Below are positions 3,134 to 16,724 of a stretch of 42,147 bases of DNA, piece by piece. Location of the stretch: NCBI GenBank assembly GCA_023249305.1, contig JAHFCU010000018.1, positions 1 to 42,147 on the forward strand, read 5' to 3'. The notes below the pieces were generated by a model, which was not told the DNA's origin, did not search any database, and worked only from the letters and a program-made list of their open reading frames with translations. The position numbers and the translations under genes were made by a program. The number at the start of each line of letters is the position of its first letter. Position 1 is the stretch's first letter. This DNA comes from Gemmatimonadota bacterium (GTDB lineage Bacteria; Gemmatimonadota; Gemmatimonadetes; Gemmatimonadales; Gemmatimonadaceae).

Positions 3134-4537
3134 TTACCACCAGCCCAGCAACTTCCACCACGCTAGGCCGATTGTCCCGTACACGCCGATTGAAATAAGC
3201 GAGATAATCAGTCCGTACAGCCACCAGTCACGCTGTGTGATGTAGCGCGAGCCGAAGTAAATAGGTGCTGGCGTCGTGCCGTAGTGCGTAAGACACGCGC
3301 TCAAGTTCGACATGTATGCCAGTAACAACACGGCAAGCAACGGCGGCGCGCCAGCGGCGATAACCACCACAAGAAACGGCGTGAACATCGCCGTGGCATG
3401 CGCTGTGATGCTCGCGAATCCGTAGTGCGCGTAGAAATAGATGAGCACGAGCACGGCGAGCGCGGCGCCCCAAGTCCAGCCGACCGTCATTGACGCGGCA
3501 TACTCCGCAAACTTGCGCGTGATGCCAGTTTCTCCGAGTGCCTCAGCCATCCGCACAAGGCCGCCATACCATATGAAGACGTCCCATGCTGGACGCTCTC
3601 CTGTGATGTCATCCCAGGACAGCACGTTGGTGAGGAAGAGCACCGAGATGCCGAGCAGGGCGACGACGGCGTAGTTGATGTGGTGCCAGGCGGTGGTCAT
3701 CCACAAGCCGGCGACGAGCATGAACACCAGCAGCATGGTGCGCTCAGGACGCGACATAGGGCCGAGCCGCGCGAGCTCCTCACGAGCGATCTTCGCCGCA
3801 CCCGGCGTGTGCTTGACATCCGGTGGATACAGCCGATAGAGCGTGAGCGGAACGAGAACCAGCAGGACGAGCCCCGGCACGACGGAGCCGAGGATCCACT
3901 TGCCGTAGGTGAAGTCGATCTTCGCCGTTGTGAAGGCGAACTTGGCGATGAGTGCATTGGAGGCTTGTCCTGTCCACCACATCGAACTCGCGAGCACGTC
4001 GCCCTGATAGATGGCGAAGAGGAGGAACGCGCCAAGCCGCCTGGCAGTCCCACCCGGGTGCGACTCATACGCTTCGGCGAGTGACGTGGCCACAGGGTAG
4101 ATGACGCCGCCGGCACGAGCGCCGTTGCTGGGGACGAAGGCCGCGAGCAGGGTGTCGGTGGAGATGAGCGCGTACGACAGGCCCAGCGACGATTGCCCGA
4201 TAGCACGGATGAACAGGAAGGCGATGCGCCGGCCGAGTCCCGTCTTGAGAACGCCGCGCGACATGAAGAAGGCGCAGAGCACCAGCCAAACGATCGGATC
4301 AGCGAATCCCTCCAGCGCATCCTTCGGCGGCATGACGTTGAAGAGCGCGATGGCGCAGATTCCGAGAAAGACCACCGCACCAGCCGCGACGGGCCGGGCG
4401 ATGGACCCAACGATGGTCGCTGCGAAGATCGCGAGCAGTCCCCACGACTGCGGAGTGATGCCGTCAGGCCGCGGCATCGCCAGCACGAACGCGACGGTGC
4501 CGAGCACGGCGACCCAGCGGAGCGACCGATGCTTCAC
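3134..4537 (-). CDS. DASS (SLC13-type) anion:sodium symporter
   Basis: A polytopic inner-membrane transporter of 467 residues with about 11-12 hydrophobic segments. The segment around residue 138 (PSNGARAGGVIYPV) matches the conserved region of bacterial DASS proteins of the citrate/succinate and 2-oxoglutarate/malate translocator type, which move di- and tricarboxylates or other anions with sodium or by antiport. A second family-like region lies near 415 (LSACLTHYGTTPAPIYFG). The substrate cannot be assigned from sequence. The GTG start overlaps the TGA stop of the upstream propeller gene in a GTGA tetranucleotide (4534-4537), so translation of the two is probably coupled. Confidence 0.85.
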   Translation of the reverse strand: MKHRSLRWVAVLGTVAFVLAMPRPDGITPQSWGLLAIFAATIVGSIARPVAAGAVVFLGICAIALFNVMPPKDALEGFADPIVWLVLCAFFMSRGVLKTGLGRRIAFLFIRAIGQSSLGLSYALISTDTLLAAFVPSNGARAGGVIYPVATSLAEAYESHPGGTARRLGAFLLFAIYQGDVLASSMWWTGQASNALIAKFAFTTAKIDFTYGKWILGSVVPGLVLLVLVPLTLYRLYPPDVKHTPGAAKIAREELARLGPMSRPERTMLLVFMLVAGLWMTTAWHHINYAVVALLGISVLFLTNVLSWDDITGERPAWDVFIWYGGLVRMAEALGETGITRKFAEYAASMTVGWTWGAALAVLVLIYFYAHYGFASITAHATAMFTPFLVVVIAAGAPPLLAVLLLAYMSNLSACLTHYGTTPAPIYFGSRYITQRDWWLYGLIISLISIGVYGTIGLAWWKLLGWW

Positions 4538-7500
4538 GGCACGACCTTATCACGCGCGAAGTTCGGGCCGAGGAGGGCCCGGGCTTTGGCCATGGTGGTG
4601 TCGAGTTCCTTGCGAAGCTGGACGTAACGCGCGGTGGCGTCCCGGCCAATGCGCTGGTCGGCCTGGTTGGTCATGCCGTAGAGGTACTGGATGTGCGACT
4701 GCAGCTCCGGCTTGCTGTAGCGCACCGCCGGCATGACGACTGTGGCGCGGATCTCATTCACCGATCTCGCCGTGTCGACGGCGACGCCGGCGGCCTTCGC
4801 AAGTCGCGTGCGCTGTTCTTCAAGTGCGGCGACGAGCTTGTTCACCTCGCTCACAAGTTCGAGGACCTTGATGTTATGGTCGTACTGCGCTTGCAAGTCG
4901 GCCACGGTGATGCCATCGGCGGCCGAGCGCGGGTCGACGCGCACGGTGAACGGCTGCGTCTGCGCGGTCCCTGCGGTGAGGCGCGCGGTGTACCGGCCTG
5001 GGACGACGGCCGGACCGCCACCACTGCGGCCGCCGCCGGCGCCAACGCCTGCGGTCCACGGACCGTTGGTGGTGAGGTCCCAAATGAAGCGGTTCATCCC
5101 CGCATTCTTCGTGAGACGCGAGGCGACACCGCCGAAGCGGCCGCCGCGCGCAGCAGGGGCGGCTTCGGCATCACTGGCCGAGAACGAACGGACGACAGTA
5201 CCCTTCGCGTCGAGGATGTCAAGCGTGAGCGTCCCCGTGTACGACGTGGGGATGTAGTAATCAATCATCGCACCAGGCGGCGGGTATTGCGGGTCGGCGC
5301 TCGCATCGCGCGTGCTCTCGACGCCGCCGAAAGTGCCAGCATAGCGCACGCGGATCACGTCGCGCGGCGTGAAGAGTGTGACGTTCGATGCCAGGCTGGC
5401 GGTAAGCTGATGCAGCGTGGTGACGTTGTCGAGGATCCAGAACGCGCGCCCCTGCGTGGAGATGACGAGGTCGTGCTGGTGGACCTTGAGGTCGGTGATG
5501 GGGGTATGCGGGAGGTTTTGCTGGAACGAGGCCCACGTGGCGCCGTTGTCGAACGAGATGTACATCCCGAACTCGGTGCCCGCGTAGAGCAGTCCTTCAC
5601 GCCTCGGGTCTTCGCGCACGACGCGTGTGGGTTCGTTGGCGGGAATGCCGTTGCTGCCGTCGGTGAGGAGTGTCCATGACGCGCCGTAGTCGTCGGTACG
5701 CCAGAGGTACGGCTTGAAGTCGCCGAGTAAGTAACAGTAGGCCGCGTAGTAGGCTGAACCGCGACGGTGCGGCGAGGGCTCGATGTTCTGCACTCGGCAA
5801 CCAGCGGGCTGCGCCTTGGGAGTGATGTTCTTCCACGTTTTCCCGTCGTCGCGCGTCACGTAGAACGGGCCGTCATTGGCACCCGTCCAAATGACTCCCT
5901 TCTCCAAGGTCGCTTCGCGGATGGCATAGAGCGTGGAGTACATCTCCTCGCCAGTGCCGTCAATCGTGATGGGTTCGCCGCTGTAGTGGCCGCGCAACTC
6001 GGGCGGGTTGGCGGTAAGGTCGGGCGAGATCGTCTCCCAAGTCACGCCTTCGTCGCGAGTGCGGTGCAGGAACTGCGAGCCGTAGTAAAGAACCCGCGGA
6101 TCATACGGAGAGAACTCCATGGGCGAAACGCGCTGAAAGCGGTAAATCAAATCCTTGGACGCGTTGCCGTAGAGCGACTGGGCGCCCACCCAATACTGCT
6201 TCTCACTGCCACTCTTGATGCGCAGGCGAGAGAACTGGCCCTTGCACGAACCGTACACCGTGTCGGGATTCGTGAGGTGCGGGAAGATCGGGCCCGTTTC
6301 GCAGCCGGGGCCGGTGCGCCACTCCTGCATTGGCGAATCAGGGCGTCCGGACGAGAGCGGAAGCGACGGGACGATGAGCGTGCTGTTGTCTTGCTGCGCA
6401 CCGTAGAGGCGATACGGGAACTGGTTATCGGTGTAGACCTGATAGATCTCAGCCGTGGGTTGATTGTAGAGCGTAGACCAGGTGCGACCGCCATTCAGCG
6501 TGACCGTGACGCCGCCGTCGTTGCTCTGCACCATGATCTGCGGGCTGTCGGGGTTGACCCAGAGATCATGATTGTCGCCGTGCGGCGTGCTGACGGGACG
6601 CCAAGTCTTGCCGCCGTCAGTAGTCTGGTTGAAGCCCTCGGCACCGATCCAGACCGTGTTGGCGTTCTTGGGGTGCGCCGTGATGTTGGTGTAATAGAAC
6701 GGCCGCGTGATGAGTTGGGTGTAGTCGCTGGCGAGCGTGAACGACTCGCCGGCGTCGATGGAGCGATAGAGGCCGTTGCCGGGCTTTGCTTCGATCAGGA
6801 CCCAGACGACGTTCGGATCAGCCGGCGTGACCGCGATGTTGCTCTTGCCGACGAGGTCGCCGGGGAGTCCGTTGGCCAGCTTCTTCCACGTACTGCCGCC
6901 GTCGGTGGACTTGTATACTCCGCCCTCACGTGCGCCCGAGATGATCGTCCACGGCTTGCGCTCGGCGCGCCACATCGAGGCGTAGAGGGTATTCGGGTTG
7001 CCGGGCTGGAACTCCACGTCCACGGCGCCGGTGGAGTCGGAGACGTAGAGGACGCGCTGCCACAACTTGCCGCCATCGGTGGTTCGGTAGAGACCGCGGT
7101 CGTTCGTGGCTTTGAAAGGATTGCCGATGGCGGCTACAAAAGCGATGTCGGGATTAGACGGATGGATGCGGATGCCGCCAATGTTGCCCACAGACCTAAG
7201 GCCGATGTGCGTCCAGGTGCGGCCAGCGTCGGCGGACTTGTAAACGCCATTTCCGATGGAGACGTTCGACCGCAGGCCATCGGAGCCTGTGCCGACGTAG
7301 ATGACGTCGGGGTTCGAGAGCGACACCTCGACGGCGCCCATCGAGCCCACGGCGAAGTAGCGGTCGGAGATGTTAACCCAGTTCTGCCCCGCGTCGGTGG
7401 TTCGCCAGATGCCACCGCCGGTGGAGCCCATATAGAACGTGTGCGGCTGGGATGGAACGCCGGTCACGGTGGTGACGCGTCCACCCCGGGCGGGGCCGAC

Positions 7501-7626
7501 GTTGCGGTACCGCAGGTGCTGAAAGAGGGAAGCGTCCGTCGGTGTTGCCATCGGCTTGGGCTTGGAACCTTGGGCCGAAAGGACGACGGGCAAGGCGAGG
7601 GCGAGGAGTTTGGCGCGGTTCAACAT
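4534..7626 (-). CDS. Secreted Asp-box (sortilin/VPS10-like) propeller protein 1
   Basis: A 1030-residue exported protein of the BNR/Asp-box glycosyl-hydrolase-like type. A signal peptide (about residues 1-20, MLNRAKLLALALPVVLSAQ) is followed by many copies of the S/T-x-D-G-G-x-T-W blade motif from about residue 60 to 750, then a beta-sandwich-like stretch and a helical C-terminal region near 900-1000. No catalytic residues can be assigned; such propellers commonly bind ligands or scaffold. The ATG at 7626 is chosen because GGGAG lies 5-6 bases upstream and the signal peptide starts there. An ATG at 7638 is in frame, and the open frame runs on upstream into the tRNA-Cys gene, which argues against longer starts. 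It is coupled to the DASS transporter downstream. A paralogue lies at 27839-31051. Confidence 0.85.
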   Translation of the reverse strand: MLNRAKLLALALPVVLSAQGSKPKPMATPTDASLFQHLRYRNVGPARGGRVTTVTGVPSQPHTFYMGSTGGGIWRTTDAGQNWVNISDRYFAVGSMGAVEVSLSNPDVIYVGTGSDGLRSNVSIGNGVYKSADAGRTWTHIGLRSVGNIGGIRIHPSNPDIAFVAAIGNPFKATNDRGLYRTTDGGKLWQRVLYVSDSTGAVDVEFQPGNPNTLYASMWRAERKPWTIISGAREGGVYKSTDGGSTWKKLANGLPGDLVGKSNIAVTPADPNVVWVLIEAKPGNGLYRSIDAGESFTLASDYTQLITRPFYYTNITAHPKNANTVWIGAEGFNQTTDGGKTWRPVSTPHGDNHDLWVNPDSPQIMVQSNDGGVTVTLNGGRTWSTLYNQPTAEIYQVYTDNQFPYRLYGAQQDNSTLIVPSLPLSSGRPDSPMQEWRTGPGCETGPIFPHLTNPDTVYGSCKGQFSRLRIKSGSEKQYWVGAQSLYGNASKDLIYRFQRVSPMEFSPYDPRVLYYGSQFLHRTRDEGVTWETISPDLTANPPELRGHYSGEPITIDGTGEEMYSTLYAIREATLEKGVIWTGANDGPFYVTRDDGKTWKNITPKAQPAGCRVQNIEPSPHRRGSAYYAAYCYLLGDFKPYLWRTDDYGASWTLLTDGSNGIPANEPTRVVREDPRREGLLYAGTEFGMYISFDNGATWASFQQNLPHTPITDLKVHQHDLVISTQGRAFWILDNVTTLHQLTASLASNVTLFTPRDVIRVRYAGTFGGVESTRDASADPQYPPPGAMIDYYIPTSYTGTLTLDILDAKGTVVRSFSASDAEAAPAARGGRFGGVASRLTKNAGMNRFIWDLTTNGPWTAGVGAGGGRSGGGPAVVPGRYTARLTAGTAQTQPFTVRVDPRSAADGITVADLQAQYDHNIKVLELVSEVNKLVAALEEQRTRLAKAAGVAVDTARSVNEIRATVVMPAVRYSKPELQSHIQYLYGMTNQADQRIGRDATARYVQLRKELDTTMAKARALLGPNFARDKVVP

Positions 7627-7763
7627 TTGAGCTCCCATAGAGTCAGTCGAGATACTCTCACGGCGCCAAAGATGCTTGCTTATGGGGGACGGGGAAGGGG
7701 GAGGGGTGCGAGGGTTCGGTGAAGGGTGAAGAGTGAGGTGAAGGGGAACACTGGGAGAATTGG

Positions 7764-7793
7764 TTGAATTGACGGGCGCGAGGGAGCTACCTT
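7764..7793 (+). promoter_or_regulatory. Candidate promoter of tRNA-Cys
   Basis: TTGAAT (7764-7769) and TACCTT (7788-7793) are separated by 18 bp and would start transcription just before the tRNA at 7805. The -10 match is only moderate. Upstream, 7683-7750 is an almost pure purine (G/A) tract with repeated GTGAAG units. Confidence 0.3.
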
Positions 7794-7804
7794 TCCCTAT
7801 CGAA

Positions 7805-7876
7805 GGCGCCGTAGCCAAGTGGTAAGGCAGGAGACTGCAAATCTCTCATTCGTCGGTTCGATTCCGACCGGCGCCT
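7805..7876 (+). tRNA. tRNA-Cys (anticodon GCA)
   Basis: The 72-nt sequence folds as a cloverleaf. The acceptor arm is GGCGCCG with CGGCGCC (7805-7811 with 7869-7875), the anticodon loop is CTGCAAA with GCA, and the T arm is GTCGG-TTCGATT-CCGAC. The discriminator base is U (7876), as usual for cysteine tRNAs. The CCA end is not encoded, so it must be added enzymatically. It stands alone on the + strand between two minus-strand genes. Confidence 0.96.
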
Positions 7877-7952: not shown

Positions 7953-10900
7953 CTACGCCGAAACCGGCCGCGTCGGGAAGCCCGCGTAGCTGAGCCGAGC
8001 CTGCAGATGTTCGTGCTTGAGCACGACGCTGTGCGGTGCCACGCGGGCGCCGGCTCCGATGTCGGCACCATACAGCAACACCGCACTGCTGCCGACGGTT
8101 GCGCCACGGCGGATCGTGATGCGATCCATCTTGAGCACGCGGTCCTCGAACGTGTGCGCTTGGAAGAGACAGTCCACTGTGCAGCCGTCCTCGAACGTGA
8201 GCATGTCCGGATCAGGCAAGTCCTCGGCGAAGCCCGTGCCGAGCACGACGCGGCGGCCGACGTTCACACCCGTCACGCGGAGCAGCGCGTTGAGCAGCAG
8301 CGTGCCGTCGAGTTGTGACACCAACGGACCCGCGCAGATATGCCAAGCAAGGCACATGAGATCCCAGCGCGACGCCCAGCTAGACCACAACGGATGCATG
8401 GCCGGCTGCACTTTCCCAAGGAGAGACCACTTGGTGATGACAACCGCCGCAGTGAAGGCGGCGCCGCAGATGAACGTGGCGGCGGGAAGTGCGACAAGCA
8501 GAAAGAGCGGAAGCGAGATGCCCGACCAGGCGGTCACGAGCGCATACCAGGCGAGCACCACGATAACAGGGAGCGCCGGCACGGTGAAGCGCGCGAGCTC
8601 CCAGAAGATGCGTACGACGTAGCGCCACGGCGTCGGGTCAAACGTGAATTGCGCGTCGTACTCGACGACCTCGCGATGCGGCAGCTCGAACGCGGGGTGA
8701 CCGAACCATGCGCTGCCCGGGCGCATGGAGGACTGTTCAGCCACCGTGCAGATGCCAAGCAGCAGATCATCAGGCAACCGCTGGCCGCCGGGGACAATGA
8801 CACCGTTGCCGAAAAAGGTCGTGTTGCCAAAGGTCGTATGGGTGACGGTGACAACGCCGCGGTGCAGGCGCGGGAAGCCAAGGTAGATCCCGTCGGCGAA
8901 GAAGTTCTTGCGGCCGATCGTCACCGATTCGGGGATAGTGTCAATGAGCGAACTGATTTCGCAATCACGACCGACGCGCATGCCAGCGAGACGCAACCAG
9001 TATGGCCAGAACAACGTTCCGTAGAGCCACTTGCTGGCGTTGTCCACGAGGCCGGGTTTGAGCCAGACGCGCACGTACGCACCGGTCCAGCGCGACGCAC
9101 TGCCGTCGGGAACGCGACCCAAGGCACGGCAGGCGAGGGCGCTGAGCACGAGGCGGGCCGGCACGGCACACGCGAACAATGGCGCGGCCACCAGCACCAA
9201 CCGCACACTGATCGCGCCGCTGAACAACCACGCGAGCACCGCACTGGTGTCAAGAGAGAACACACGCAAGGCGGTCCACGTGCAGATGCCGAGCGGCAGG
9301 GCGAACACAAACGACAGTGCGAGGCGTGTGCCGAACAGACGCGCCGCATAAGCGATGGGCGAAAGGTCGCGCGTACGATCAACAGATGGTGGATCCGGCG
9401 CGCGTCCGGCAGGATGCGCCGGAAGCCCATCCCAGCGTTCGCCAGCCGGCACTCTTGCCCCGTCGTTCAGCGAGGCGTTGTCGGCCAGCATTGCGCCGAC
9501 CTCAAGCACGCAGTGGCCACCAACGCCAGCGTGGACGCCAACAGTGACACCGGCGCCAAGCGTCACCGGAGAATAAACGAGATGTCCATCATCCAATTCA
9601 GCGATGCGCACCGCTGAATCCTGGGCCAGCGTGACGTCATCGCCGAGGTCGAGCAAGTCCCAGCCACCGCGCGTAAGCGCGACGCCGCGATGGATATGCA
9701 CGCGAGCGCCGATCCGCGCACCCAAGGCACGCAATGCCATGATCTGGAACTCGGTGCCCTCGAGAAGCGTCCATGGAATCGCCTTGACCGACTGCTGCGC
9801 CAGCCAGTGCGGTAGATAGTCGGCACTCCACACGCGCACACGACCGGCGGCGTACGTGCCGATCAAGCGACGCTTGCTAAACACCGCCAGCGACACAGCG
9901 ATCGGCGCCCACAACAGGACAGCGAGCAAGGCAACCGGCGGTGCAAGGATCACGGACGGCACGAGGCCGATGCGCAGCACGACCGCTGGTAACAGGTAGA
10001 AGGCGAGTAGCCAGAGGGTGACGGAAACGACCAGCAGAGACCGCAGGAGCGAGAGCGTCTGGCGAAGCGTGACGCCGACGACGGGAATGTCGATGTCAAC
10101 TGCGGAGGCCGCTGCGTCCGCCTCGATGCCACGCGGCCCGCGCTCGCGCACACGCGCCGCCAGCGCTCGCACGGTGCGCGCCTCGTACAGGTCACGCACG
10201 TCGAGCACACCCGCCCGCGCATCATCTCGAAGGCGCGTGATCAACTCGGCGGCGCTAAGCGAGTCGCCACCGAGGCCCGTGAAGAAATCTTCCATGGCGT
10301 CGGGATACTGCGCCATCCGGAGCACGCGCCGCATGGCGTCGGCTATGGTGCGCTCGAGCGGATCGTCAGGTGCCGCGCCGCCCGCGACACTTGGTGTGCC
10401 ATTGATCTTCGGTAGCTGCTTGCGATCGAGCTTACCGCCGATCGTCGTCGGCAAGGCGTCAATGGCCGCGATCTGTGCGGGAATCATGTACGGCGGCAGG
10501 ACGGCGCGCAGCGCGTTCTGTAGGTCGGCCGGCGAAGGCACCGGCACCATCGCCTCAGGGACAAAGAACGCCACGAGCGTCTGTCGGCCGTCGTCGTCCT
10601 GCACGGTGCACACGGCTTCGCGCACGCCATCGCACGCAACAAGCGCGGATTCAATGGCGCCGAGCTCGACCCGATAACCGCGCAGCTTCACCTGCGCGTC
10701 AATGCGTCCGTGGTAGATGAGCGTTCCGTCGGGCTCTCGCTGGGCGAGGTCACCGGAGCGATAGATGCGGCCCAGCCGCGGATGACGCGGGAAACGCTGC
10801 TCGGTGAGTTCGGGTTGCCTCCAATAGCCACGCGCGAGCGCGATTCCACCAAACACCAGTTCTCCCTGCACGCCATCCGCGACGGGCTCCAAGTTCTCGT

Positions 10901-11921
10901 CCACGATCCATGCATGGACGTTTTGGATCGGGAGGCCAATCGTCACCGGCGTTCCCACAATCATGTGCGCGCGCGTGCAGGTGACAGAACATTCGGTGGG
11001 GCCGTACCCATTGACGAGCGAGCGTCCGTGCGCCCATCGGTCATTGAGATCCTGCGGCAGCGCCTCACCGCCAACGTACAGCAGCTTGAGCGCCGGGAGT
11101 TCGCGAGCCGGTTGTTCGCATCCGGTGGCACGTAACATCGTGGGTGGTGCGCAGAAGACAGTGACCTGTTCGTCACGGAGCCAGCGAATCATGTCCGGTC
11201 CGAGGCGAACAGCGTCCTCGTCCATCACGACAACGGTCGCACCGGCCGCGAGCGCGAGAAACAACTCCTCGACCGACGAGTCATACGCCGCCGACGAGTT
11301 CTGCACGGCCCGATCATCCGCGGTGAGCCTGAATGCGTCGAAATCCGACTGCACCTTGTTGCAGATCGAGCGATGCTCGATCATCACGCCCTTAGGGCGG
11401 CCCGTGGTGCCGGACGTGTAGATGACGTATGCGAGTGACGACGGCGTGAGCCACGGCGGCTCCGGCGGTGCAACGACAGGGTGATGTCCGTGCGTGATCT
11501 CGACGACATCAATGATGCGATCGGCAGAGAATCCCGCGGCAATGGCGCGGGTTCTTCCGGGGGCATCAGTCAACAGGGCGACCGGCTGCGCATCGGCGAT
11601 GGTGTCGCGCAGGCGTTCGTCAGGAAAGGCGAGATCGAGGCACGCGTACGCGGCGCCGGCCTTCATCACCCCGAGCTGAGCGGCGTAGAGATGCGCACCC
11701 GTGCGTGTGAGGAGCACGGCGACGATGCATTCGCCATTGACAAACGGGGCCAGCGCGCGCGCCACCGCGTTTGACTGCCGGTCGAGTTCGGCGTAGGTGG
11801 TGCGATGACGCGAGGGACGCAGCCGTCCGGGCGGGACGTCAACCGCGACGCGATGCGGCCAACGCGTGGCCGAGCGCGTGAAGAACTCATGCAGCAGCCA
11901 AGGCGCGACCAGCGGGTTCAT
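7953..11921 (-). CDS. Single-module NRPS-like membrane protein, poly-amino-acid synthetase (Pls) type
   Basis: A 1322-residue protein. The adenylation domain spans about 1-505, with YTSGTTGRPKG (168-178), NGYGPTE (304-310), YRSGD (387-391), RGYRVELGAIE (414-424) and the A10 lysine K497. A carrier domain follows, with phosphopantetheine serine S554 in GGDSL. The rest alternates three pairs of membrane segments (about 622-685, 862-930, 1105-1165) with three left-handed-helix-like acyltransferase segments (about 730-830, 980-1070, 1215-1320). This A-T-(TM, tandem domain)x3 layout is that of epsilon-poly-L-lysine synthetase and related proteins, which make one-amino-acid polymers or short amides at the membrane. 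Aligning by hand to the GrsA pocket gives D-S-E-C-Y-G-G-V-T-K; the acidic residue at the third position would suit a basic amino acid, but this is weak inference. No canonical condensation or thioesterase domain is present. Confidence 0.85.
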   Translation of the reverse strand: MNPLVAPWLLHEFFTRSATRWPHRVAVDVPPGRLRPSRHRTTYAELDRQSNAVARALAPFVNGECIVAVLLTRTGAHLYAAQLGVMKAGAAYACLDLAFPDERLRDTIADAQPVALLTDAPGRTRAIAAGFSADRIIDVVEITHGHHPVVAPPEPPWLTPSSLAYVIYTSGTTGRPKGVMIEHRSICNKVQSDFDAFRLTADDRAVQNSSAAYDSSVEELFLALAAGATVVVMDEDAVRLGPDMIRWLRDEQVTVFCAPPTMLRATGCEQPARELPALKLLYVGGEALPQDLNDRWAHGRSLVNGYGPTECSVTCTRAHMIVGTPVTIGLPIQNVHAWIVDENLEPVADGVQGELVFGGIALARGYWRQPELTEQRFPRHPRLGRIYRSGDLAQREPDGTLIYHGRIDAQVKLRGYRVELGAIESALVACDGVREAVCTVQDDDGRQTLVAFFVPEAMVPVPSPADLQNALRAVLPPYMIPAQIAAIDALPTTIGGKLDRKQLPKINGTPSVAGGAAPDDPLERTIADAMRRVLRMAQYPDAMEDFFTGLGGDSLSAAELITRLRDDARAGVLDVRDLYEARTVRALAARVRERGPRGIEADAAASAVDIDIPVVGVTLRQTLSLLRSLLVVSVTLWLLAFYLLPAVVLRIGLVPSVILAPPVALLAVLLWAPIAVSLAVFSKRRLIGTYAAGRVRVWSADYLPHWLAQQSVKAIPWTLLEGTEFQIMALRALGARIGARVHIHRGVALTRGGWDLLDLGDDVTLAQDSAVRIAELDDGHLVYSPVTLGAGVTVGVHAGVGGHCVLEVGAMLADNASLNDGARVPAGERWDGLPAHPAGRAPDPPSVDRTRDLSPIAYAARLFGTRLALSFVFALPLGICTWTALRVFSLDTSAVLAWLFSGAISVRLVLVAAPLFACAVPARLVLSALACRALGRVPDGSASRWTGAYVRVWLKPGLVDNASKWLYGTLFWPYWLRLAGMRVGRDCEISSLIDTIPESVTIGRKNFFADGIYLGFPRLHRGVVTVTHTTFGNTTFFGNGVIVPGGQRLPDDLLLGICTVAEQSSMRPGSAWFGHPAFELPHREVVEYDAQFTFDPTPWRYVVRIFWELARFTVPALPVIVVLAWYALVTAWSGISLPLFLLVALPAATFICGAAFTAAVVITKWSLLGKVQPAMHPLWSSWASRWDLMCLAWHICAGPLVSQLDGTLLLNALLRVTGVNVGRRVVLGTGFAEDLPDPDMLTFEDGCTVDCLFQAHTFEDRVLKMDRITIRRGATVGSSAVLLYGADIGAGARVAPHSVVLKHEHLQARLSYAGFPTRPVSA

Positions 11922-12010: not shown

Positions 12011-12370
12011 CTACTGTTCACGTCCCCGAAGCGGCGGCCAACGAAATCTCTCGAATCCGAGATGCCGCGCGTCTCGGGGTTCCAAGACACGCCACGCGAG
12101 CCGTTCGAGCGCTGATCGCGCCTGGACGGTCCAGTCGTCGCGAAGCGGCGGTGATTTCCGACATGCCATGGCCCACGCGGTGTCAACGAGATCGCGGATC
12201 AGCCAACGCTCGAGCGCGTCCGGATCGCGTGCGGTCTTCTCGGGGGGAACAAGGACTTCGGCTGCCAGCAATGCGCGCCACGCCGCCGCCGGCAGGTCAG
12301 CCCACCGCTCGACGAGGGCGTAGACCGCCGGCCATCCCAACTCCGCACGTGCGTCTGGTGTCTGCCGCAT
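12011..12370 (-). CDS. Small protein of unknown function upstream of the NRPS-like gene
   Basis: Not recognised. From the ATG at 12370 the frame encodes 119 residues rich in Trp, Leu, Ala and Arg, without membrane segments or a signal peptide, and likely mostly helical. Codon use looks coding, with G or C common in third positions. The frame is open further upstream to a GTG at 12490 (159 residues), but the longer version would swallow the four-box operator at 12391-12441, whose twin sits 19 bp before kimA. The 20-bp distance from that operator to the ATG at 12370 therefore favours the short form. No Shine-Dalgarno sequence is visible, so a leaderless start is possible. The NRPS-like gene begins 89 bp downstream on the same strand, so the two probably share a transcript. 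Confidence 0.55.
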   Translation of the reverse strand: MRQTPDARAELGWPAVYALVERWADLPAAAWRALLAAEVLVPPEKTARDPDALERWLIRDLVDTAWAMACRKSPPLRDDWTVQARSALERLAWRVLEPRDARHLGFERFRWPPLRGREQ

Positions 12371-12390
12371 GGAGTCACGATGCGCCGCGT

Positions 12391-12441
12391 CGCGTGAAAC
12401 TCGCGTGAACGCGGACGCAAGGGACGTAAACAGGCCGTGAA
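12391..12441 (-). promoter_or_regulatory. Four-box direct-repeat operator, copy 1 (before the small protein and NRPS-like gene)
   Basis: Read on the minus strand, boxes TTCACGGC (12441-12434), TTTACGTC (12430-12423), TTCACGCG (12409-12402) and TTCACGCG (12398-12391) start at relative positions 0, 11, 32 and 43. The pair-to-pair spacer is 13 bp. The last box ends 20 bp before the ATG at 12370. The copy at 14747-14797 has the same geometry. The 11-bp period is typical for OmpR/PhoB-class regulators. The site also lies 82 bp from the KdpE-like start on the other strand, so it could act in both directions. Confidence 0.75.
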
Positions 12442-12523
12442 GATCCCAGAACCATGGCCCCGCCCCTTTCGCAGGCAACGGCGATGTCACAGCGTCATGT
12501 ATGGTCTCTCTCGCAAGGTCCGT

Positions 12524-13270
12524 ATGAACGGCGTTCCCTTCTCTGTGCTTGTGATTGATGACGAACCACAGATCCGTCGGGTCGTCCGAAATGCGCTAAA
12601 CGCGGACGCACTCGCGGCAGGCGATGCGGGGGCACAGCCAGCCGTACGAGCCTTGGAGGCGGCCACCGGGCGTGAGGGCATTGATCTCGCCGCCGCAGAA
12701 TTACCAGCGTTGATCATCTTGGATCTTGGGCTCCCCGACCTGACGGGCATTGCCGTTTGCCGGGAAATCCGCCGTTGGAGCCGCGCGCCAATCATCGTGC
12801 TTTCAGCGCGCCACGAAGACACCGAGAAGGCCGCGCTACTCGATGCAGGCGCTGACGACTACATGACGAAGCCGTTCAGCACCGTCGAACTACTCGCCCG
12901 CGCACGAGCGCAACTTCGGCGAGCGCGCCAACTGACGGAGCCGTCGCCCAAGGAACGCGTCACGATAGGCGATCTCACGGTGGACCTTGGCCTGCGCCGT
13001 GTGGAGCGCAGTGGTGTCCTGGTGCACCTCACACGCACGGAGTGGGCGCTGCTGCGCACGTTCATCGAGAATCCACGCAAGACGCTGACACATCGTCAAC
13101 TGTTCACTGCCGTGTGGGGCAACTCCGAAGGTGATGCACAGCAGTACCTGCGTGTGTATGTCGGACACCTGCGACGGAAGATCGAGCAGGACCCAATACG
13201 CCCACGGTACCTGCAAACCGAGCCCGGAGTGGGATACCGCTTCGAACCCGACGCCGATGCGCAGCGCTGA
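12524..13270 (+). CDS. kdpE: KdpE-like response regulator (OmpR/PhoB class)
   Basis: A 248-residue DNA-binding response regulator. The receiver domain has VIDDEPQIRR near the N-terminus, phosphoacceptor Asp67 in IILDLGLPD, and Lys116 in MTKPFS. A winged-helix output domain follows (about 145-245, ending in the recognition helix and YLQTEPGVGYRF). The VLVIDDEPQIRRVVRNAL start and DLGLPD motif resemble KdpE, which activates potassium uptake genes. The ATG at 12524 is preferred to longer frames because it starts directly at the receiver domain and AAGG lies 5 bases upstream. The kinase gene overlaps its end by 14 bp. Its likely targets are the two four-box operators on either side of this gene pair; that link is inference. 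Confidence 0.88.
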   Translation: MNGVPFSVLVIDDEPQIRRVVRNALNADALAAGDAGAQPAVRALEAATGREGIDLAAAELPALIILDLGLPDLTGIAVCREIRRWSRAPIIVLSARHEDTEKAALLDAGADDYMTKPFSTVELLARARAQLRRARQLTEPSPKERVTIGDLTVDLGLRRVERSGVLVHLTRTEWALLRTFIENPRKTLTHRQLFTAVWGNSEGDAQQYLRVYVGHLRRKIEQDPIRPRYLQTEPGVGYRFEPDADAQR

Positions 13271-14684
13271 TGCTCGAGAGACGGCCGACAGCCGCTCGAC
13301 GCCGCTCCGTACGTGGGTGCTGTGGTTCGCTGCCCTCGTCACGCTGACGGTGGCAATGGTGGCGGCGCGCTCGTTCCTCGACAAGGCGCATGTGGCGTTG
13401 CTGTATCTCCTCGTGGTACTCGGAGCGAGCAGCGCCGGCGGTCGCACGCTGGGTTTCTCCGTTTCGGCGGCTGGGTTTCTCCTGTTCAACTTCTTCTTCC
13501 TGCCGCCGCTTGGCACGCTGACCGTCGCGCACCCACTCGACCTGCTGGTGCTCGCGACGTTCGTGGTGACGAGCGTCGTCGCCGCGCAGTTGATGTACCG
13601 CGCGAATCGCGAGGCGAGCGAAGCGCATGACCGTGCGGCGGAAATCGACCGGCTGGCAGCGCTGGGCGCGGAGACGCTGAACGCCGCGGACGCCAGGGAC
13701 GGCCTGCGGGCAATCGTGGGCGTGATTCAGTCCATTCTTCGCGTCGAGTACTGCGAAGTTGTCGAAGAACTACCCTCAGTGGCGGAGGCGACTGTCAGCG
13801 ACCGCGAACGCGAACTGCTCCTGCCGCTGCGCGTACGGGACAACACCGTCGGTGTCTTGCAGATCGAGGATTCACGAGGCCTCAACCTGACACCGGAGCG
13901 GAGACGACTGCTGGACGCACTGGCGTACTACGCTGCCCTCGGCGTGGAACGCGTGCGACTCACGGAGGCTGCCGAGCGCGCTGAGGCACAGCGGCGCATG
14001 GAGTCGCTGCGCAGCGCCCTGCTGACGTCGGTTTCGCACGATCTTCGCACGCCGCTGACAAGCATCAAGGGCATCGCGCATGAGATTGCGGATGGTGGAG
14101 ACCCGCGCGCCGCTGAGGAGATCGAGGCGGCCGCAGATCGCCTCAACACGCTCATCGGCGACATGCTTGAGCTGTCGCGCATCCAGGCTGGCGCGGTCCG
14201 CATGTCGCCGGCGGTTGAGACGATTGACGATCTCATCGGGGCCGCCCTACGACAGGCGCGCAGTCTCCTGAAAGATCGTTTTGTGGCCATTGACGGCACC
14301 GAGGAGCTGCTGAGCGGCCGTTTCGTGTTCACGGACGCACTCCGGATTCTCGTGAACCTGCTGGAGAATGCGGCCAAGTACTCGCCGCTGGACACACCGA
14401 TTGACCTGCGCGTGCGGCGCGACGGTGCGGTGATCTCGCTGGCGGTCATGGACCGCGGGCCGGGCGTTCCGGAGTCTGAGCACGAGCGGATCTTCGAACC
14501 GTTCTACCGACCCCCGGGGACACCTGCGGATGCAGGCGGAACGGGCCTAGGCCTGTCGATTGCGAGAGGCCTGGCGGAGGCACAGGGCGGCCGAGTGCGC
14601 TATGAGCCGCGGGACGGCGGCGGCGCCGCCTTCATCTTCGAAGTACGCGCCGCGGACACGCCAAACGAGCCGCTCGGTAGCTGA
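13257..14684 (+). CDS. kdpD: Short KdpD-like sensor histidine kinase lacking the N-terminal KdpD/Usp domains
   Basis: A 475-residue membrane kinase. Residues 19-115 form the four-segment DUF4118 membrane domain of KdpD (with LFNFFFLPPLGTLTV). A GAF-like region lies around 130-235, the HisKA helix has His261 in SVSHDLRTPLTSIKG, and the ATPase domain has NLLENAAKYSP, DRGPGVP and GGTGLGLSIARGL. E. coli KdpD has nearly 900 residues and carries a cytoplasmic KdpD domain plus a Usp domain before the membrane part; both are absent here. The frame stays open upstream inside kdpE, but no KdpD-domain sequence is there. The ATG at 13257 overlaps kdpE by 14 bp, implying coupled translation. It presumably phosphorylates the neighbouring regulator in response to potassium or ionic stress. 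Confidence 0.87.
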   Translation: MRSADARETADSRSTPLRTWVLWFAALVTLTVAMVAARSFLDKAHVALLYLLVVLGASSAGGRTLGFSVSAAGFLLFNFFFLPPLGTLTVAHPLDLLVLATFVVTSVVAAQLMYRANREASEAHDRAAEIDRLAALGAETLNAADARDGLRAIVGVIQSILRVEYCEVVEELPSVAEATVSDRERELLLPLRVRDNTVGVLQIEDSRGLNLTPERRRLLDALAYYAALGVERVRLTEAAERAEAQRRMESLRSALLTSVSHDLRTPLTSIKGIAHEIADGGDPRAAEEIEAAADRLNTLIGDMLELSRIQAGAVRMSPAVETIDDLIGAALRQARSLLKDRFVAIDGTEELLSGRFVFTDALRILVNLLENAAKYSPLDTPIDLRVRRDGAVISLAVMDRGPGVPESEHERIFEPFYRPPGTPADAGGTGLGLSIARGLAEAQGGRVRYEPRDGGGAAFIFEVRAADTPNEPLGS

Positions 14685-14746
14685 CGCTCCAGTCAGTTGG
14701 ACGCGGGCGCGTTGTCTCCCGAGAGGGACCGACGCCGCGACGCGTC

Positions 14747-14797
14747 TTTACGCGTTATTTGTGCGTTGTTTGCCGCCGTTCACGCGCGCTTCACGCG
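14747..14797 (+). promoter_or_regulatory. Four-box direct-repeat operator, copy 2 (before kimA)
   Basis: Boxes TTTACGCG (14747-14754), TTTGTGCG (14758-14765), TTCACGCG (14779-14786) and TTCACGCG (14790-14797) start at relative positions 0, 11, 32 and 43. The inner spacer is 13 bp, exactly as in copy 1. The last box ends 19 bp before the kimA GTG. A weak -10-like TGAATT (14804-14809) lies 7 bases before the GTG, so the boxes would replace a -35 element and the mRNA could be leaderless. The unit resembles the 11-nt repeats of actinobacterial PhoP boxes, so a PhoP/PhoB-type regulator is the alternative binder. Confidence 0.75.
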
Positions 14798-14816
14798 AGT
14801 CGGTGAATTGTGCAGC

Positions 14817-16724
14817 GTGACCTCCTCAATTATCGGCTTCAAGCGGCTGCTCTTTGGCAGACCGCTTCCATCGGACCGGCTCGAGCACGAACGACTGAAC
14901 AAGAAGACAGCGCTCGCCGTCTTGTCGTCCGACGCGATCTCGTCCGTCGCCTACGCCACCGAACAGACGCTGCTCGTGCTTGCCGTACTCGGCGCTGCGG
15001 CGCTGAACTACGTCATTCCAATTTCGGCGGTCATCGTTGGCCTGCTGGTCTTGGTGGCGGTCTCCTACCGTCAGACGATTTTCGCGTATCCAGCGGGCGG
15101 TGGTTCGTATACCGTCGCGAGAGACAACCTCGGCGGTTCTCCCGGGCTGATTGCGGCCGCCGCCCTGCTCACCGACTACATCCTGACGGTATCGGTGTCG
15201 ATTTCGAGCGGCGTCGCGGCCATTACCTCGGCGTATCCTTCACTCGCGCCGCACGCGGTGACGCTGTGCATCGGTGCCATCGCCGTGCTGATGCTGGTGA
15301 ACCTGCGGGGCGTCCGTGAGTCGGGCATTGCGTTCAGCGTGCCGACATACGTCTTCATCGCGTTGATGCTCCTGTTGATCGGCACGGGGATTGTGCGCGG
15401 TCTGATGGGTCATGAACTGGCGCCGCTGACAAGCACTCCGCACGTTGACGCGGTCAGTGCGGCGCAACACGGGTTGCGGATCCCCGCCGGATTCGCGTTC
15501 ACGTACCTGCTGTTGCGTGCGTTTGCTGAAGGGTGCGTGGCGATGACCGGCACGGAAGCGATCTCGAATGGAGTCGGCGCATTCCGGAAACCGAGTTCAC
15601 GCAACGCGGCCGCCACGCTGGGATGGATGGCGGCAATTCTCGCGACCTTCTTCCTAGGAACGAGCTATCTGGCGCACCACTACGGCGTGATGCCAGGCGC
15701 AAGCGAGACCGTGCTCTCGCAGATTGGGCGGCACGTCTTGGGCGGCGGCGGGCTCTACTATGCACTGCAGTACGCAACGTTCGCCGTGCTAGTGCTGGCG
15801 GCCAACACCGCCTTCGCCGACTTCCCCCGCTTGTCGAGCATTCTCGCCGCCGACGGCTACATGCCGCGCCAGTTCGCCGCGCGCGGTGACCGCCTGGCAT
15901 TCTCGAACGGCATCATCGTGCTGGCGCTCATGGCCGCACTGCTTGTCTGGCTCTTTCATGGCGACACCAGCGCGCTGATTCCGCTCTATGCGATTGGCGT
16001 GTTCATTTGCTTCACACTGTCACAGGCGGGAATGGTGGTGCATTGGTTCAAGTTGCGCGACGATGGGTGGCAACGCCGCGCCTGGCTGAATGGCATCGGC
16101 GCGGCCGCAACCGCCGCGGTGGCTGTCGTGCAAGTCGTAACCAAATTTACGGCGGGCGCGTGGATCGTCACCATCATTATCCCATTGATCATCGTGATGC
16201 TGCGCACAATCCATCGGCACTACGAACGCTTCTCGAAGGAAGTGGCCTACACCGGCCAGGCGCCACTGATGTTCCTGCATCACACGGTTATCGTGCCGGT
16301 CAACGGCATCTCCAAGCCGACGGCCGGTGCACTCGTGTACGCAACGACGATCTCTGAAGACGTACGCGCAGTGTACGTGGAAGTGGACGGTGCTTCAACA
16401 GAGCGCCTGCAGGCCGAGTGGGAGGCGTGGGACATCGGTGTGCCGCTGGTGGTGATTCCATCCCCCTTCCGTTCGGTACTGCGTCCGATCGTTGACTACG
16501 TGCAGGGACTCGCAGAGCGAGGAGAAACGGACCTGGTGACCATTGTCGTGCCAGAAATCGTGCCACGCCATTGGTGGGAACACTTGCTGCACAACAAGAC
16601 GGCACTCTTCATCCGCACGGCGTTCATATTCCGGCCGAACGTCGTGGTCACGGCGGTGCCGTACCTCGTCGGACGCGCACGGCGCCTGCGCGATCTCGCA
16701 GAATACGATGAGGCGATAGCGTAG
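14817..16724 (+). CDS. kimA: KimA-type high-affinity potassium importer (APC superfamily)
   Basis: A 635-residue inner-membrane protein, close in length to Bacillus subtilis KimA (607). The N-terminus FKRLLFGRPL, the signature VLSSDAISSVAYATEQ, the YPAGGGSYTVARDNLG and LLTDYILTVSVSIS segments, about 12 membrane helices to residue 460, and a cytoplasmic C-terminal domain from about 485 (VIVPVNGISKPTAGALVYA) match KimA proteins, which import potassium with protons and are inhibited by c-di-AMP. The frame is open further upstream, but the GTG at 14817 gives the N-terminus expected for KimA and lies just after the four-box operator. No Shine-Dalgarno is visible. It sits 132 bp after the KdpD-like kinase, and no kdpFABC genes are in the window, so this is the likely potassium uptake target of that system. 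Confidence 0.88.
   Translation: MTSSIIGFKRLLFGRPLPSDRLEHERLNKKTALAVLSSDAISSVAYATEQTLLVLAVLGAAALNYVIPISAVIVGLLVLVAVSYRQTIFAYPAGGGSYTVARDNLGGSPGLIAAAALLTDYILTVSVSISSGVAAITSAYPSLAPHAVTLCIGAIAVLMLVNLRGVRESGIAFSVPTYVFIALMLLLIGTGIVRGLMGHELAPLTSTPHVDAVSAAQHGLRIPAGFAFTYLLLRAFAEGCVAMTGTEAISNGVGAFRKPSSRNAAATLGWMAAILATFFLGTSYLAHHYGVMPGASETVLSQIGRHVLGGGGLYYALQYATFAVLVLAANTAFADFPRLSSILAADGYMPRQFAARGDRLAFSNGIIVLALMAALLVWLFHGDTSALIPLYAIGVFICFTLSQAGMVVHWFKLRDDGWQRRAWLNGIGAAATAAVAVVQVVTKFTAGAWIVTIIIPLIIVMLRTIHRHYERFSKEVAYTGQAPLMFLHHTVIVPVNGISKPTAGALVYATTISEDVRAVYVEVDGASTERLQAEWEAWDIGVPLVVIPSPFRSVLRPIVDYVQGLAERGETDLVTIVVPEIVPRHWWEHLLHNKTALFIRTAFIFRPNVVVTAVPYLVGRARRLRDLAEYDEAIA

Follow-up and report, generated by a model that had tools for sequence, protein, structure and literature searches.

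A stretch of Gemmatimonadota DNA of 42,147 nucleotides, which was analysed as a whole and is referred to as the window, carries the same arrangement of four short boxes on both sides of a gene pair resembling kdpE and kdpD, and this locus raises the question of which protein recognizes the boxes and which genes it thereby controls. The description given in the sequence-only reading holds letter for letter: in both copies the boxes start at relative positions 0, 11, 32 and 43, the copies flank the KdpE/KdpD-like gene pair, and the last box is separated by 20 bases from ATG 12370 on the minus strand and by 19 bases from GTG 14817 on the plus strand. One statement had to be corrected: the first gene behind copy 1 is not the NRPS but a small ORF (12370-12011, minus strand), and the NRPS begins 89 bases after the end of this ORF. 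The features relevant to the question are the following:

12391..12441, minus strand: operator 1, directed toward the small ORF, with four boxes (0/11/32/43) in a distal pair at 12423-12441 and a proximal pair at 12391-12409; from the sequence, the genome search and the matrix
14747..14797, plus strand: operator 2, with four boxes (0/11/32/43) in a distal pair at 14747-14765 and a proximal pair at 14779-14797; from the sequence, the genome search and the matrix
12524..13270, plus strand: KdpE-like response regulator of the OmpR/PhoB class; ATG 12524 from the sequence, assignment from domains and the best PDB match, 4kny
13257..14684, plus strand: KdpD-like histidine kinase with DUF4118, GAF, HisKA and HATPase; ATG 13257 from the sequence
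14817..16724, plus strand: KimA-type K+ transporter; GTG start, match to PDB 6s3k
12011..12370, minus strand: small ORF of 119 aa from a KdpE-associated family with the motif W...WxxRDxxxT; predicted leaderless start
7953..11921, minus strand: Pls/PosA-like NRPS, second in order behind operator 1, with adenylation and carrier domains and a match to TIGR02353 in its C-terminal part

The boxes of operator 1 read TTCACGGC, TTTACGTC, TTCACGCG and TTCACGCG on the minus strand from 12441 to 12391, and those of operator 2 read TTTACGCG, TTTGTGCG, TTCACGCG and TTCACGCG on the plus strand from 14747 to 14797. Single pairs of boxes are not special in the 42-kb window (17 found versus 13.94 expected with at most three mismatches), and for this reason the claim rests on the four-box layout. 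With the box consensus derived from the window itself and at most three mismatches, this layout occurs at only these two places in the 2.5-Mb assembly (78.56% complete), and the reversed pattern, searched as a control in the same way, has no match there: the four-box layout is far beyond chance. An origin by chance or by recent duplication of one intergenic region might be read from the abundance of single pairs, but the spacers and flanks differ between the copies, in line with the earlier view of a shared geometry, the genome holds just two sites and none for the reversed control, and the layout is kept in relatives. Differing flanks, genome count and conservation refute this explanation, whose probability we regard as practically nil.

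Upstream regions of the orthologous genes bear out the expected conservation, as both operators keep the 0/11/32/43 layout in members of the genus despite differing spacers, which supports the KdpE-like regulator as their ligand. Distinct copies from the same genus number four on the kimA side and three on the NRPS side: the layout precedes kimA in the window, in genomes G001 and G008 and in the second cluster of G004, where the first box is weak, and it precedes the small ORF in the window, in G001 (13150/13182 of locus L037) and in G004 (7370/7402 of L039). Four-box matches were found in 5 of 60 genomes with at most two mismatches and in 7 of 179 family genomes with at most one, the window's own genome being included in both counts and the reversed control giving 0 in both; one of the seven is a microsatellite, and the match in G068 was dropped as a site on this ground. 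The sites are real and conserved, and each is a real operator. G004 also has a cluster that nearly equals the window and lies on a contig of different coverage; as this may be a binning mix-up, the cluster and the window were treated as one copy. Contig JAHFCT010000060.1 of another MAG (L040, L054) is about 100% identical to the window and has a lower coverage than the second kimA contig of that MAG; near-identity and lower coverage together suggest mixed binning.

We further analyzed the operator grammar in 71 upstream regions (38 kimA, 30 kdpA and 3 from the NRPS side) with a strict box score, where the kdpA regions are the loci returned from 54 genomes with KdpA, several of them sharing one genus, and where sequences of related genomes are not independent of each other. 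The box spacing peaks at 11 on the plus strand, with 20 matches in 15/38 kimA regions and 24 in 17/30 kdpA regions against a shuffle mean of 0.23 for each group (40 shuffles); the minus strand holds 5 such pairs for kimA and 0 for kdpA. Three kimA regions that were originally omitted (G011, G017 and G029) have no strict plus-strand pair, which makes the kimA count 15/41, and no pair was found at 8 of the 20 kimA loci with KdpE close by. The distance from pair to pair is 32 in 17 sequences and 33 in 5 (shuffles: 0.00, n=20), a distance of 21, corresponding to the inner-box register, occurs in 6 sequences, and the remaining distances occur 0 or 1 times. A double pair, that is, two 11-bp direct repeats 32-33 bp apart, is present in 7/38 kimA regions and in 11/30 kdpA regions, the latter 11 belonging to other genera than that of the window; in G023 it lies 454 bp upstream of kimA before another ORF, the region here having been taken at 480 bp instead of 350 bp. 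Strict double pairs were also counted in 1.91 Mb of loci, which are not all distinct and were in some cases chosen for their match: a distance of 32 gave 22, the G068 microsatellite included, and a distance of 33 gave 5, compared to 4 at the other 38 distances between 20 and 59 and 0 in the reversed sequences. A matrix built from the last pair of each of 18 kdpFABC (kdpA) sites, all outside the window's genus, places the two window sites first and second among 84,194 positions with scores of 36.0 and 31.4, followed by 13.9 for a shifted register of site 1 and by 10.6. At the level of sequence, these analyses show that the window sites and kdpFABC of other genera have an operator in common, and both the double pair before kdpFABC of other genera and the selection of the window sites by the matrix support the assignment to KdpE.

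Comparison with the kdpFABC promoter of E. coli points in the same direction. Passages of PMC3264566 give the E. coli KdpE site upstream of kdpFABC as TTTATA-N5-TTTACA, with the 11-bp period and TT heads. In the K-12 genome, TTTGCGAAATCTTTGCA stands exactly 32 bp downstream of this known site, TTTATACTTTTTTTACA, and TACCCT comes next at offset 27. The E. coli promoter therefore shares with the window the 11-bp direct repeat with an invariant TT heading each half-site, the spacing between the pairs, as TTTGCG-N5-TTTGCA lies 32 bp downstream of the known pair, and the 59 bp from the start of the distal pair to the start of the -10 element. It differs in its target, kdpFABC instead of kimA and the ORF-NRPS unit, and in its boxes, which are less GC-rich than those of the window (TTYACG). 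Moreover, the E. coli KdpE footprint from -72 to -50, as reported in the same passages, covers the distal pair only, which leaves a second dimer there hypothetical, whereas in the window both pairs are strong. For KdpE of M. smegmatis, passages of PMC5401905 report a footprint on a different sequence. Outside the family, we compared 17 sequences: 15 plasmid kdpA regions from records picked for variety out of 60 listed among 463, E. coli, and the Armatimonadota kimA region L091, which was added after its pair had been found. Four of these 17 (E. coli, Duffyella, Mycetohabitans and Armatimonadota kimA) have the double pair at 32 bp, and all four show TAnnnT at offset 27; a weak double pair at 33 bp is present in Paracoccus, and the remaining 12 have none. 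Among 40 distant kimA regions, a strict pair within 350 bp was found in one, L091, and on the Ktedonobacteria contig L106 a double pair at 33 bp lies some 490 bp before a kimA match.

The E. coli footprint also suggests an arrangement in which KdpE acts on both window sites with the distal pair alone being strong, while the proximal pair mainly serves RNA polymerase as a -35-like element. This would agree with a proximal pair that is weaker than the distal one in E. coli, in Mycetohabitans and in the Armatimonadota kimA promoter. In the window, however, the proximal pairs score higher than the distal pairs (20.9 and 17.3 versus 15.1 and 14.1, in a matrix trained on last pairs), and a strong proximal pair is kept in several kdpA regions of the family. 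We consider this arrangement unlikely and favor the binding of KdpE to both pairs.

The regulator encoded between the operators has a receiver and a winged helix domain, its closest solved structure is that of E. coli KdpE (PDB 4kny), and it scores 227.2 bits against NCBIfam NF007820, the E. coli equivalog, which is below the cut-off of 325 and the best among 80 families. The residues aligned with R193, R200 and T215 of E. coli KdpE, which according to passages of PMC3264566 are needed for DNA binding, are conserved, on the inferred assumption that the 4kny chain numbering equals the E. coli number plus 2; their conservation, together with the 11-bp period and the TT heads, supports KdpE as the ligand. 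The N-terminal KdpD domain PF02702 is absent from the kinase and was not found in the window genome (78.56% complete). In G004, a separate gene of 395 aa (L038, 10002-11186, minus strand) corresponds to this KdpD sensor half (PF02702 plus Usp) and is located between the kdpFABC operon and kimA. KdpA was found neither in the window genome nor in the 99%-complete G001, and within the genus G004 alone has it. The transporter gene product matches PDB 6s3k with 488.1 bits (E 3.4e-145) over residues 8-616 of 635, and the record titles of its relatives with at least about 64% identity all name Gemmatimonadota or synonyms (one reads 'Gemmatimonas sp.'), with one exception filed under Acidobacteria. 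Across 36 family genomes, a KdpE match accompanies KimA of at least 65% in 12/12 cases versus 9/24 among the others; in G017 it lies on a different contig from kimA.

Repeats of about 11 bp are commonly used by OmpR/PhoB-class regulators, and each genome contained many candidate relatives of the regulator at first look, so that a different response regulator of the genome, and not the neighboring KdpE, might own the boxes. Against this stand the spacing and TT heads, which are of the KdpE type, the occurrence of the box motif before kdpFABC, and the distribution of the NRPS sites: NRPS homologues exist in at least 13 of the 179 family genomes (best candidates scored), and four members of the genus, G003, G006, G007 and G010 (87, 98, 81 and 85% complete), have the NRPS and no KdpE match at E 1e-60. 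In all four, the double pair is absent from the NRPS stretches, which adds support for KdpE. We consider ownership by another regulator very unlikely. In G008, the NRPS adjoins kdpE with neither small ORF nor boxes. A strong pair inside the NRPS coding start (e.g., L217 2651) was set aside as coding sequence, since it is also present in a genome lacking a KdpE match. The KdpE-like protein, which had been proposed as the binder of the boxes in the sequence-only reading, is accordingly backed by the comparison of sites, genomes and residues and is the best-supported candidate ligand.

On the minus strand, the NRPS was replaced as the first target by the small ORF, which in the window, G001 and G004 is the gene immediately following the operator. 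Relatives of the small ORF in G024 and G029 also carry the site, with no NRPS match among those listed. The small ORF has no Pfam match; an alignment of eight sequences has W, W, D, T and L in common, and a structure model based on three sequences is helical with a mean pLDDT of 56.7, which is too poor for a fold search. A profile of the family matches at least 11 of the 179 family genomes (best candidates scored), 10 of which have a KdpE match; the one profile-positive genome without a listed KdpE match is G149, where the small-ORF match is weak. The 13 distinct loci found with this protein profile comprise seven with a double pair upstream, two with a pair and four with none. L228 and L233 are the same DNA as the profile members L057 and L076, and five loci are new to the profile: L236 and L240 have a double pair, L237 has one pair, and none is present at L238 or L241, which are weak matches; the contig of L236 shows no kdpE match among those listed. 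The NRPS behind the small ORF scores 341.4 bits against TIGR02353, below the cut-off of 423.1 even though model positions 3-694 of 695 are covered. A tRNA gene at 7805-7876 (plus strand) overlaps the start of a long minus-strand ORF (4534-7818), the true start of which is probably further in.

A candidate -10 hexamer was found behind each operator:

12377..12382, minus strand: predicted -10 hexamer CATCGT, at offset 27 relative to the first base of the proximal pair, 6 bases before ATG
14806..14811, plus strand: predicted -10 hexamer AATTGT, at offset 27 relative to the first base of the proximal pair, 5 bases before GTG

Both hexamers match TANNNT at positions 2 and 6 only. Among 78 regions, 42 distinct ones have a strict pair, and with the last pair as anchor xAxxxT occurs at offset 27 in 26 of the 41 that are long enough, compared to 0-4 at every other offset from 17 to 59. 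With the best pair as anchor (58 sequences), peaks appear at 27 (21/58; 28 has 10) and at 59 (14/50; 60 has 5), with 0-5 at the other offsets; two main peaks are expected if the best pair is the proximal one in some sequences and the distal one in others. A double pair in G019 (L030 / L068 11286, minus strand), some kilobases from kimA, is accompanied by CACCCT at offset 27. In PhoB/OmpR-class promoters, the regulator box can take the place of the -35 element. Given the -10-like element at a fixed offset of 27 bp, both window sites look like activator promoters, and the same fixed distance supports the assignment to KdpE. Since the -10 candidates lie just 5 and 6 bases before the start codons, leaderless kimA and small-ORF mRNAs starting at their start codons are predicted. 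The short distance of 19-20 bases between the end of the proximal pair and the start codons could alternatively indicate a repressor operator, at which KdpE or another OmpR-class regulator blocks the promoter with the last box near the start codon. However, the boxes are followed at a fixed offset by the -10-like element, an order also shown by activated promoters that have a box at -35, and this layout recurs ahead of kdpFABC, which in E. coli needs KdpE for expression (passages of PMC3264566); we consider repression very improbable indeed.

Taken together, we hold it to be highly probable that the four-box sites are promoters of kimA and of the small ORF-NRPS unit that are activated by phosphorylated KdpE; from the comparisons above we infer that KdpE binds and activates, that K+ is the signal, and where transcription starts. 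Each site would accommodate two KdpE dimers on two 11-bp direct-repeat pairs that are 32 bp, or about three helical turns, apart, and both dimers would sit on the same side of the helix. The proximal pair would stand in for a -35 element, with the -10 hexamer starting 27 bp from the first base of this pair. Upon K+ scarcity, the truncated KdpD would phosphorylate KdpE, and KdpE~P would induce kimA in one direction and, in the other, the small ORF with the Pls/PosA-like NRPS, transcription presumably starting at the start codon in this genus.

The kind of system is already known: promoters of the PhoB/OmpR class likewise combine 11-bp direct repeats with an activator dimer next to the -10 element, but Pho promoters have tandem boxes of 22 bp whereas the window would have two dimers 32 bp apart. 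KimA of Bacillus is under the control of a c-di-AMP riboswitch. The window encodes the same transporter type (6s3k), here apparently controlled by a two-component system, and an Rfam scan of the window at gathering thresholds gave one tRNA only and no riboswitch before kimA. NRPSs of the Pls/PosA family are of the epsilon-polylysine synthetase type, and the window NRPS resembles them in its adenylation and carrier domains and in the near full-length C-terminal match to TIGR02353; it differs in a score below the curated cut-off and in its position behind a KdpE-type promoter. Among the literature matches listed, titles and abstract starts contained neither KdpE control of KimA nor a Pls-type NRPS under KdpDE, and the matches listed likewise contained neither KdpE sites in Gemmatimonadota, with subscription journals mostly outside the scope, nor the doubled layout with these targets and this promoter spacing.

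These observations can be joined in a reading that we put forward tentatively, as its chances appear slightly short of even: the double-dimer KdpE promoter (32-33 bp between pairs, -10 at 27) would be old and widespread and would have been overlooked in E. coli through its degenerate proximal pair, whereas in Gemmatimonadaceae it would have become symmetric and strong and moved to KimA, a small protein family without an earlier name and a Pls/PosA-like NRPS. In that case, a lack of K+ would induce K+ import together with a peptide product that may be cationic. The operators provide a testable promoter grammar for K+-responsive genes in Gemmatimonadota, predict control of KimA by a two-component system in this phylum, and mark the small protein family and the NRPS as likely members of a K+ regulon. 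Because the E. coli kdp promoter has this spacing as well, the question of a second KdpE dimer also arises for that textbook system.

Finally, three relatives have a small ORF behind the double pair that comes after kdpD (L046, 8766-9047, minus strand; L058, 5511-5996, plus strand; L224, 1177-1791, minus strand). The actuator domain of KdpB usually contains TGES. By eye, the three ORFs resemble this domain, with TGES lacking, and they may represent a relic or a regulator; the one that was scanned, from L224, matches PF00122 weakly with 20.4 bits, below the cut-off.
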